A stretch of DNA of 64,000 nucleotides, from positions 909,501-973,500 of the forward strand of contig NZ_CP051630.1 in assembly GCF_012848855.1 (NCBI RefSeq), read 5' to 3'. Below the pieces are notes generated by a model. The model ran no database searches, had not been told where the DNA came from, and saw nothing but the letters and a program-made list of their open reading frames with translations. Positions within the stretch are counted from its first letter, which is position 1. Every line of letters begins with the position of its first letter. The stretch is from Pyruvatibacter mobilis (GTDB lineage: Bacteria > Pseudomonadota > Alphaproteobacteria > CGMCC-115125). A program made the position numbers and the translations under genes. Below, piece by piece: positions 12,319 to 14,333 of this stretch.

Positions 12319-12560
12319 GCCCGCACTTATCCTCGCGGGCGTGAGTCTGTGGGCATGTGGAGCGATGCGGATTATCGAGTCTTGTCAGTGGCCTGACGGG
12401 ATATCCACAAGACCCTGAATCGCAATTGCCCACAGCCCGGGGCGGCGTGTCTGCCTCCCGGCCCCGCGCGCCGCGCCACTCGCCGACGCCTGATGTTGCA
12501 CGCCTGCCCGCAGCCGCTATGGTCGCGCGGTTGTCGGCCACGGGGTGATTCCGGGCGCAT

Positions 12561-12599
12561 GCGGGCTTGGTGGAATTGGTAGACACAAGGGACTTAAAA
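12561..12599 (+). pseudogene. 5' half of a split tRNA-Leu(UAA) gene
   Basis: The acceptor strand GCGGGCT, D-arm GTGGAATTGGTAGACAC and the 5' side of the anticodon arm AGGGACTTAAAA are intact, but the sequence then changes to unrelated DNA. The matching 3' half is at 13808-13868. Joined across the 11-bp shared block, the two halves make a canonical tRNA-Leu: acceptor GCGGGCT/AGCCCGC, anticodon stem AGGGA/TCCCT, anticodon TAA, variable arm GGACG/CGTCC, T-arm GCCGG/CCGGC. As a linear gene it is disrupted. It could function only if the 1.2-kb insert were excised from DNA or, less likely, spliced from RNA. Confidence 0.88.
12589..12599 (+). repeat. left junction direct repeat (attL-like)
   Basis: GGGACTTAAAA, identical to 13808-13818. 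On the element side it continues CGACTTTTAGTCCC, making an imperfect inverted repeat around the junction as in tyrosine-recombinase core sites. Confidence 0.75.
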
Positions 12600-12845
12600 C
12601 GACTTTTAGTCCCCATCCTGAAGAAACAACGACTTGTGGAGAAAGTTAGAACTGTTCCTTGCTCACAAGTCCCTGAACCTATGGGGGTATCAAGTCACCC
12701 TTGGATTGATTGGGTGAGGATTTCAGCCAAAAAAATCTGTTTCTGCAACAAAGTCCCCTGCTAATTGCAGGGGTGGATTAGTGAAGCTCTTTCGGTGAGG
12801 TGATTGTTGCGGCAGTTGCTGCAATGCAACCTTTCCTATCCTCGT
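12600..12845 (+). other. structured gene-free left arm of the element
   Basis: Perfect hairpins are GACTTGTG/CACAAGTC (12631-12671, 25-nt loop) and CCCCTGC-TAATT-GCAGGGG (12755-12773). There is also an almost perfect palindrome TTGCGGCAGTTGCTGCAA near 12807. The motif AGTCCC/AAGTCCC, complementary to the GGGACTT of the tRNA anticodon arm, recurs near 12609, 12667 and 12752, with a variant AAGTCACCC at 12692. These could be recombinase arm sites or parts of a transcribed RNA. Group I intron core elements were sought and not seen. Confidence 0.5.
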
Positions 12846-12932
12846 GCGGGCGTGGCGAAACTGGTATACGCACAAGACTTAAAATCTTGGGTCCGATAGG
12901 ACGTGCGGGTTCGATCCCCGCCGCCCGCACCA
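12846..12932 (+). tRNA. tRNA-Leu(UAA), intact, carried on the element
   Basis: Acceptor GCGGGCG pairs with CGCCCGC, discriminator A, encoded CCA. D-arm GCG/CGC; anticodon stem CAAGA/TCTTG around CTTAAAA with anticodon TAA at 12880-12882; long variable arm GTCC-GATA-GGAC; T-arm GCGGG-TTCGATC-CCCGC. It has the same anticodon as the disrupted host gene but differs throughout the D, anticodon-stem, variable and T regions, so it is not a local duplicate. It probably replaces the destroyed gene. The downstream DUF4145 start codon is only 15 nt away. Confidence 0.93.
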
Positions 12933-12947
12933 TAGGATTAATTGCAT

Positions 12948-13715
12948 ATGGAACCACCTTTTTCTTGGACCTGCCCCTACTGCGGGCAACCGACTACGAT
13001 AACCGCTGCAAGCATCAAAAACCAAACTGTCGTCATGGCTTCTGTCCAGAAAAAAAAGCCCTCTATCGCCCTGAGGGCACAGGCCATTGGCTGTCCTAAT
13101 CCTAATTGTGGAGAGCTCACGCTTTCGGTGGCCGCTTGGTACGCCAAGGGGAGCGGGGGGCAACGTGTCAAACAAGAAGAAATTGGTATTTGGAAGCTTC
13201 TACCGGAATCGAATGCAAAGCCGATCCCGGAGTACGTGCCGGAGGCCATAAGGGATGCCTATCAGCAAGCGGCAAGAATAGTTGAACTCAGTCCGAACGC
13301 GTCTGCGGCGCTTTCTCGTCGCTGTCTGCAAGGCATCATTCGTGATTTTTGGAATTTGCCGGAAGGCAAAAGAGGCAAATTAGGTGCGGAGATCAGTTCG
13401 CTTTCCGATCAAATTGACCCTGAACTTCTGAAAGAAATTGAGGCAATACGGGCGATCGGAGACATCGGCGCGCATATGGACAAGCACGTTGATATGGTCG
13501 TGGATGTCGAGCCAGAGGAAGCCCGCCTTCTCGTAGCTCTCATCGAAATTCTAATCGACCGTTGGTACGTCAACCGCAAGAAGCGTTCGGAGCAAACCGC
13601 CAAGCTTCATGAGATTGTGGCGAATAAACGGGCACAAAAACGGAAAAACAAACAGGAAAAAAAGGCATCTGACGGCCCTTCTGTGACCAACTTAGAGAAT
13701 GAGCAAGGGACCTAG
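12948..13715 (+). CDS. zinc-ribbon plus DUF4145 (HEPN-like) protein
   Basis: A 255-residue protein. The N-terminus has a zinc ribbon (CPYC at residues 9-12 and CPNPNC at 49-54). Residues about 95-205 match DUF4145: LSRRCLQGIIRDFW, then IEAIRAIGDIGAH with R168 and H176, the conserved Arg/His pair of this HEPN-related fold. The C-terminus is a long basic tail rich in Lys/Arg. DUF4145 domains are often found in restriction and other defence contexts and the fold includes RNases; catalytic activity here is inference. The ATG at 12948 has AGGA ten bases upstream and lies 15 nt past the tRNA. Composition is AT-rich and foreign-looking. Confidence 0.85.
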   Translation: MEPPFSWTCPYCGQPTTITAASIKNQTVVMASVQKKKPSIALRAQAIGCPNPNCGELTLSVAAWYAKGSGGQRVKQEEIGIWKLLPESNAKPIPEYVPEAIRDAYQQAARIVELSPNASAALSRRCLQGIIRDFWNLPEGKRGKLGAEISSLSDQIDPELLKEIEAIRAIGDIGAHMDKHVDMVVDVEPEEARLLVALIEILIDRWYVNRKKRSEQTAKLHEIVANKRAQKRKNKQEKKASDGPSVTNLENEQGT

Positions 13716-13807
13716 TCTCCTTACTTTTTTTGTTGCCGCAACTGTTGCCGGAAATGCGACTGGCTGCATTTTCTTCCAGCTAAGTGCTTGAATTTCTTAG
13801 GGGTTTG

Positions 13808-13868
13808 GGGACTTAAAATCCCTCGGACGGTAACGTCCATGCCGGTTCAAGTCCGGCAGCCCGCACCA
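13808..13868 (+). pseudogene. 3' half of the split tRNA-Leu(UAA) gene, with right junction repeat
   Basis: Begins with the direct repeat GGGACTTAAAA (13808-13818, attR-like) and continues TCCCT, variable arm GGACGGTAACGTCC, T-arm and acceptor AGCCCGC with encoded CCA at 13866-13868. All parts pair correctly with the 5' half at 12561-12599. It is separated from its promoter-proximal half by the element, so it is presumably not expressed as tRNA. Confidence 0.88.
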
Positions 13869-13925
13869 CCGCACGCTATCTTGCAGCATCCGGGTACTGT
13901 CCCGACGCGCGATGAGGTCATCGCC

Positions 13926-14333
13926 ATGGCAGAGAACAAGACCGTTCCCACACGGGCCTCCGTGAATGCCTTTCTGGATGGTGTTGCCCCCGCGCGGCGT
14001 CAGGCGGATGCGCGGGTGGCGCTTGAGATCTATCGGCGCGTCACGGGGCTTGAGCCCGTCATGTGGGGGCCGTCGATCATCGGGTTCGGTGAGCGGCGCT
14101 ACACCACGGATGCCGGTCGCGCGGGGCGGGTACCCGCAGCCTGCTTCTCGCCGCGCAAGGCCAACATGACCTTCTATGTGCGTGACAGCTTCCCCGAAGC
14201 TGAGACGCTTTACGCCCGGCTCGGCAAGCATCGCCGTTCCGTCGCCTGCCTTTACATCAACAAGCTGGATGATGTGGATCTCGCTGTGCTGGAAGAGATC
14301 ATCGCCCGGCAATATGCGGCGGACATCGCCTGA
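13926..14333 (+). CDS. DUF1801 domain-containing protein
   Basis: A 135-residue protein of the DUF1801 (YdhG-like) family, with the segments VARR-type VAPARRQADA, EPVMWGPSIIGFG and a C-terminal LYINKLDDVDLAVLEEII. The family is widespread and small; the biochemical role is unknown and some members are iron-chaperone-like. The ATG at 13926 was chosen because GAGG precedes it and upstream sequence belongs to the tRNA half. It is the first host gene after the tRNA insertion. Confidence 0.85.
   Translation: MAENKTVPTRASVNAFLDGVAPARRQADARVALEIYRRVTGLEPVMWGPSIIGFGERRYTTDAGRAGRVPAACFSPRKANMTFYVRDSFPEAETLYARLGKHRRSVACLYINKLDDVDLAVLEEIIARQYAADIA

Follow-up and report, generated by a model that had tools for sequence, protein, structure and literature searches.

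The host tRNA-Leu(UAA) gene of Pyruvatibacter mobilis is split by a 1.2-kb insert that holds, between the two host halves, a tRNA-Leu(UAA) that is intact, together with a single DUF4145 (HEPN) gene. We consider it highly probable (roughly 0.85) that this insert is an integrase-less mobile cassette that uses tRNA-dependent integration at the tRNA-Leu(UAA) anticodon loop. The features read from sequence are the split itself, an empty site in a relative, the presence of a sole copy of the tRNA, the repeats at the junctions, a sister element and integrase-bearing relatives with the same layout. Positions are those of the window, the whole 64,000-nt stretch analysed (contig NZ_CP051630.1, positions 909,501 to 973,500).

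The split host gene and its replacement

The 5′ half of the host tRNA-Leu(UAA) gene (GCGGGCTTGGTGGAATTGGTAGACACAAGGGACTTAAAA; 12561–12599, plus strand, as are all features of this locus given here) equals bases 1–39 of the intact gene of a relative (G003) and ends with the last base of the anticodon loop, and the displaced 3′ half, identified from sequence and by comparison with G003, occupies 13819–13868. An 11-bp direct repeat, GGGACTTAAAA, spans the anticodon stem and loop and forms the attL core (12589–12599) and the attR core (13808–13818), so that a split host gene with this repeat at both junctions, as described in a first-pass annotation, is borne out by the sequence. The break had been placed after the 5′ side of the anticodon loop, but the left host part covers all 7 nt of the loop, because both repeat copies contain the entire anticodon loop. 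Neither junction has a complete host gene: the 3′ half is missing on the left and the 5′ half on the right. Joined, the halves form an 89-nt tRNA-Leu with 7/7 acceptor pairs, 5/5 anticodon-stem pairs and the discriminator base A.

The genus comparison comprised four genomes: that of the window (G000, a single complete contig), G001, G002 and G003. The orthologous locus of G003 contains an intact 89-nt tRNA-Leu(UAA) that is 100% identical to the joined halves of the window, in flanks that are syntenic with those of the window locus. The search of relatives for the same gene lacking the insert thus yielded an intact orthologue, and the possibility that the two halves are not orthologous to such a gene fell away. 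The same gene is split in the two further genus genomes, G001 and G002, and equivalent tRNA-Leu splits occur in five more genomes, so the split in the window is not a chance event. In all eight insertions for which both halves were located, the halves together give 7/7 acceptor and 5/5 anticodon-stem pairs, and they lie 1.2–40 kb apart or on separate contigs.

The insert has a G+C content of 50%, against 65% for the window. Its left end (12600–12845) shares homology with that of the G001 element described below, contains no integrase remnant that we could find and has one TGTTGCS motif (12805–12811), a putative arm-type integrase site. The replacement tRNA-Leu(UAA) follows at 12846–12932; it is the one tRNA that ARAGORN reports in the window, as tRNA-Leu(taa), matches the Rfam tRNA model with 59.5 bits and has 11/17 anticodon-arm positions in common with the host gene. 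The right end (13716–13807), homologous to that of G001, carries paired TGTTGCC motifs at 13731 and 13743, with a 12-bp spacing, as putative arm-type sites. The element encodes a single protein and has no phage genes; its attL and attR flank DNA devoid of recombination genes, neither an integrase nor a remnant of one was found within it, and no integrase of the kind present in G002 was found in the G000 genome.

The cargo gene (12948–13715) encodes a 255-residue protein with a zinc ribbon and a DUF4145 (HEPN) domain that resembles PD-T7-4 by PADLOC. Its ATG at 12948 lies 15 nt past the CCA end of the tRNA, with an AGGA 10 nt upstream. The protein scores 31 bits against Pfam PF13643 (DUF4145; curated cut-off 23.1), its zinc-ribbon match is weak, and residues 64–234 match positions 58–208 of the 211-position PADLOC PD-T7-4 model at 3.2e-11. 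In a check for the Rx4-6H motif, R168 and H176 were invariant in four relatives, though seven residues apart. An AlphaFold model of the protein, with a mean pLDDT of 46.9, was too poor for a fold search or a check for a helical bundle. DUF4145 and AbiV are members of the HEPN superfamily (PMC3710099), and the matches suggest an anti-phage function for the cargo. ARAGORN, Rfam and Pfam together confirm the content earlier attributed to the insert, namely an intact but divergent tRNA-Leu with the same anticodon and a zinc-ribbon/DUF4145 gene.

We searched the genomes with a pattern consisting of a TTAAAA anticodon loop followed by a T-loop. It matched only the element tRNA and the orphan host 3′ half in G000, the corresponding pair plus one non-tRNA match in G001, and in G003 the host gene as the only tRNA; no second tRNA-Leu(UAA) gene was found by this pattern search in G000, G001 or G003. 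A second host tRNA-Leu(UAA) in G000 was considered and rejected on these matches. The count of other such genes, proposed earlier as a check, therefore came to none found in G000, which supports the claim that the element inactivates the host gene and puts its own in its place, and the objection of a second intact copy fell away. The ORFs of the window do use UUA codons, though rarely: there are 7 among 16,870 codons, spread over 6 of the 50 ORFs. The element's tRNA-Leu(UAA) is, on this sequence evidence, likely essential. Loss of the element's tRNA had been expected to be costly, and for a deletion of that tRNA this should hold; precise attL × attR excision, however, would restore the host gene, as the empty site of G003 leads us to expect, and the element would for that reason be guarded against deletion and not against excision.

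A sister element and integrase-bearing islands

In G001, the same tRNA-Leu(UAA) gene is split by a 1.1-kb insert that brings a tRNA-Leu(UAA) with 89% identity to the replacement in the window, and an AbiV gene (PF18728, 2.6e-13; PADLOC AbiV, 9.2e-9) whose ORF starts 13 nt past the CCA end. This replacement is identical to the host gene at 13/17 anticodon-arm positions. The non-coding left ends of the G000 and G001 elements are homologous, as are their right ends, with alignment scores above those of all 300 shuffles on each side; the cargo genes are unrelated. That the ends and the tRNA are common to both elements, and the cargo is not, suggests a modular cassette without an integrase. An integrase remnant was found in the ends of neither mini-element, and both have TGTTGCS pairs 12 bp apart.

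These are the two mini-elements recognized. A scan of the genome contigs with the right-end motif returned chance matches in unrelated genes only; a class-wide arm-motif search gave no more recognizable mini-elements, its other matches falling in loci that lack a real tRNA-Leu gene, and the replacement tRNA, compared with sequences across the class, brought up mostly ordinary tRNA-Leu genes. The class covered by these searches is, judging by gene content, Alphaproteobacteria. No AbiV relatives scored above threshold in the class sample. Neither the G000 genome nor the class-wide arm-motif search yielded a helper integrase for the mini-elements. As a separate observation, G001 has a second, decayed tRNA-Leu(UAA) 3′ half downstream of the first (G001:C1:1921337-1921383; L020), with an AAA_18 kinase-like gene between the two; this second half is perhaps the trace of an older insertion at the same tRNA.

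Tyrosine integrases, absent from the window element, are encoded by the elements of G002, G012, G103, G384, G326 and G118. In G002, downstream of the 5′ half of the orthologous host gene come a 393-aa tyrosine integrase and a replacement tRNA-Leu(UAA), in that order, the latter split by a group I intron (RF00028, E 1.1e-9). The displaced 3′ half lies on a different contig, and a HipA gene is present at that side of the island. Relatives of this integrase led to G012, G103, G384 and G326, which belong to four other families of the class. The order 5′ half, integrase, replacement tRNA, cargo and 3′ half is common to G002, G012, G103 and G326, and G384 has the same layout with its 3′ half not located. 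Group I introns interrupt the replacement tRNAs of all four of these further genomes. The spliced exons of the G002, G012, G103 and G384 replacements give tRNA-Leu(UAA), and the 3′ exon of G326 lies partly in a contig gap. The 3′ half is 20.4 kb from the 5′ half in G103, 27.6 kb away in G012 and on another contig in G326. In G118, a related integrase splits tRNA-Leu(UAG), and the island carries an intact tRNA-Leu(UAG); the integrase here adjoins the 3′ half and points away from it (L067, L098). Cargo analysis of the G103, G326 and G118 islands identified defence genes in each: a type I restriction–modification (R-M) system and AbiE in G103, ShosA/ShosT in G326 and, in G118, AbiE together with DruE1 (Druantia). 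The G002 integrase had no match in a search of known phages.

Other members of the integrase family adjoin tRNA-fMet or tRNA-Arg genes. Related integrases lie beside an intact tRNA-fMet at L074 (G012), L064, L068, L069, L070 and L072, and at L074 a second tRNA-fMet lies downstream of the integrase. At L060, also in G012, the attL upstream of the integrase has an element-borne 3′ half, lacking a variable arm, after the host 5′ half; it is a decayed restoring junction and possibly an evolutionary intermediate.

Paired short repeats with an 11–12-bp spacing, like arm-type sites, are present at the ends of most elements. At the left ends of four integrase islands the repeats are TTACACA pairs with an 11-bp spacing, and two of these islands have pairs at the right end too, spaced by 12 bp; the motif of the mini-elements, in contrast, is TGTTGCS. 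The group I introns of the replacement tRNAs at L021, L060, L062, L063 and L066 lie inside the anticodon loop and interrupt what would be the integrase target, and they may shield the spare tRNA copy from the element's own integrase. Intron-bearing replacements match the host anticodon arm at 17/17 and 16/17 positions but at 13/17 in G002, and intron-less ones at 11/17, 13/17 and 9/17 but at 15/17 for the prophage described next; the former may thus keep a host-like arm from which the latter differ, a trend in these sequences that is suggestive only.

Outside the window, a 40.6-kb T7-like prophage (G000:C1, about 77,625–118,290; L149–L151) splits a second tRNA-Leu gene of G000, tRNA-Leu(CAA), whose parts lie at about C1:77,625 and C1:118,270; the prophage carries an intact tRNA-Leu(CAA) beside its own integrase. 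Its repeat is the 15-bp CAGACTCAAAATCTG, and PHROG matches include a head-tail adaptor, tail, terminase, DNA polymerase, primase/helicase, internal virion protein and integrase. The integrase of this prophage was rejected as a helper of the window element, as the core CAGACTCAAAATCTG belongs to tRNA-Leu(CAA).

Proposed mechanism and competing explanations

In the scheme that we infer, which covers an integrase-mediated origin, trans-mobilization, co-transcription, anti-phage function and essentiality, a tyrosine recombinase would have integrated the 1.2-kb cassette site-specifically at the anticodon loop of the host tRNA-Leu(UAA) gene, with which the cassette's attP has some 11–16 bp in common. 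The anticodon stem and loop are the classical core of tyrosine-recombinase att sites (PMC8371274). With so short a common core neither junction would rebuild a tRNA, which is why the element would supply its own, offsetting the damage with a complete, sequence-divergent tRNA-Leu(UAA). The HEPN gene, which starts 15 nt past this tRNA, would probably be read from the tRNA transcript. The cassette would be moved in trans by an integrase from elsewhere and, with no cognate integrase recognized in the genome, would at present be stuck. Selection would keep tRNA and defence gene together because deletion would remove the only tRNA-Leu(UAA), and an integrase arriving in trans would excise the cassette precisely.

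We regard it as possible, though we do not favour it, that the window element is instead what is left of an island that lost its integrase and most of its cargo, an immobile remainder of ends, indispensable tRNA and one gene. In the autonomous relatives the order is the same, with the integrase between the left end and the tRNA, and an integrase-removing deletion in such an island would yield the mini layout; the tRNA could not be lost, which would preserve the core. Both mini-elements could be deletion derivatives that are no longer mobile. However, two elements with diverged but homologous ends have the same integrase-less layout and unrelated cargo, which suggests that a minimal form spread and swapped its cargo. 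Moreover, neither mini-element has yielded an integrase remnant, and their arm motifs are unlike those of the known integrase islands.

It is highly improbable that the cassette acts as toxin and antidote, with a HEPN protein that cleaves native tRNA-Leu(UAA) of host or phage and spares, or depends on, the element's variant. The HEPN ORF does start 13–15 nt past the replacement tRNA in both mini-elements, the replacement anticodon arms differ from the host's (11/17 and 13/17 identical), and HEPN families are mostly RNases (PMC3710099). But only these two cases are at hand, the broken host copy needs no sparing, and no tRNA-Leu was found next to the DUF4145 relatives encoded elsewhere in the class or on viral contigs. 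The earlier idea of tRNA-Leu(UAA) as a handle for a toxin finds no support: tRNA is replaced in the same way alongside unrelated cargo, non-HEPN genes included, namely type I R-M, AbiE, ShosA/T, Druantia, HipA and a T7-like prophage, and tRNA-dependent integration explains the architecture with no link to a toxin (PMC10865867). A functional pair in which the RNase would strike native-type tRNA-Leu(UAA), whether phage-supplied or restored, and the divergent tRNA of the element would resist is equally unlikely; were it true, the cassette would replace the broken gene and at the same time act as a trap, penalizing its own precise excision or any re-entry by the native tRNA.

That the insert behaves like an intron, spliced from the transcript of a still-working host gene, is barely credible: it does sit in the tRNA-Leu(UAA) anticodon loop, the classic site of group I introns, but no Rfam group I intron model matches 12400–14000 at E values up to 1 (on which basis we rejected a group I intron identity), although relatives do have such introns in their replacement tRNAs, and a copy of the loop stands at each end, as att sites would have it, with a separate intact tRNA inside.

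Relation to known systems

An integrase-less cassette that replaces its target tRNA has its closest counterpart in tRNA-dependent lysogeny, shown experimentally for actinobacteriophages by Guerrero-Bustamante and Hatfull in 2024 (PMC10865867). Both have a short attP/attB core in a tRNA gene (about 8–17 bp there, 11–16 bp here), junctions at which no functional tRNA is rebuilt, a same-isotype replacement tRNA and paired arm-type sites, putative in our case. The actinobacteriophages, however, are temperate and have an integrase, whereas the window element is 1.2 kb long, carries no integrase or phage genes and one putative defence gene, and sits in tRNA-Leu(UAA); its integrase-bearing relatives are mostly defence islands, with a group I intron in the replacement tRNA. 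Prophages of S. meliloti similar to Mesorhizobium phage Lo5R7ANS, integrated in tRNA-Leu(UAG) (PMC11476347), are likewise alphaproteobacterial mid-gene tRNA-Leu insertions that inactivate the gene and supply a foreign tRNA-Leu with the same anticodon. They differ in being integrated phages at tRNA-Leu(UAG), and the tRNA-Leu(CAA) prophage of G000 and the tRNA-Leu(UAG) island of G118 are nearer to them than the window element is.

CIMEs and other non-autonomous integrative elements are att-flanked, recombinase-less and dependent on an integrase in trans. The window element resembles them in its attL and attR, its lack of recombination genes and its apparent, putative in-trans dependence, but it is far smaller, at 1.2 kb, and carries a replacement for the target gene that it destroyed. 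With the group I introns of tRNA-Leu(UAA) it has in common the anticodon-loop location; such introns interrupt the replacement tRNAs of the G002, G012, G103, G384 and G326 islands, but the insertion in the window is not one and its replacement tRNA lacks one. The cargo genes have likenesses among single-gene anti-phage systems, to PD-T7-4 by PADLOC for the window, where Pfam gives DUF4145, and to AbiV by Pfam (2.6e-13) for G001, with the difference that the predicted relatives here ride on a tRNA-replacing cassette. On our reading, the integration mechanism shown for actinobacteriophages would here serve a non-phage, integrase-less defence cassette, probably mobilized in trans.

If our reading is right, tRNA-dependent integration is not confined to phages but is also used by islands and by a minimal defence unit, and the window element would come close to the smallest conceivable mobile defence unit, consisting of an att site, a replacement tRNA and one HEPN gene. 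The same process would account for some of the foreign and broken tRNA genes in bacterial genomes and would suggest a role for the group I introns of replacement tRNAs, that of protecting the spare tRNA gene against the integrase of the element itself. It would also show how a defence gene may be locked into a chromosome without a toxin–antitoxin pair.
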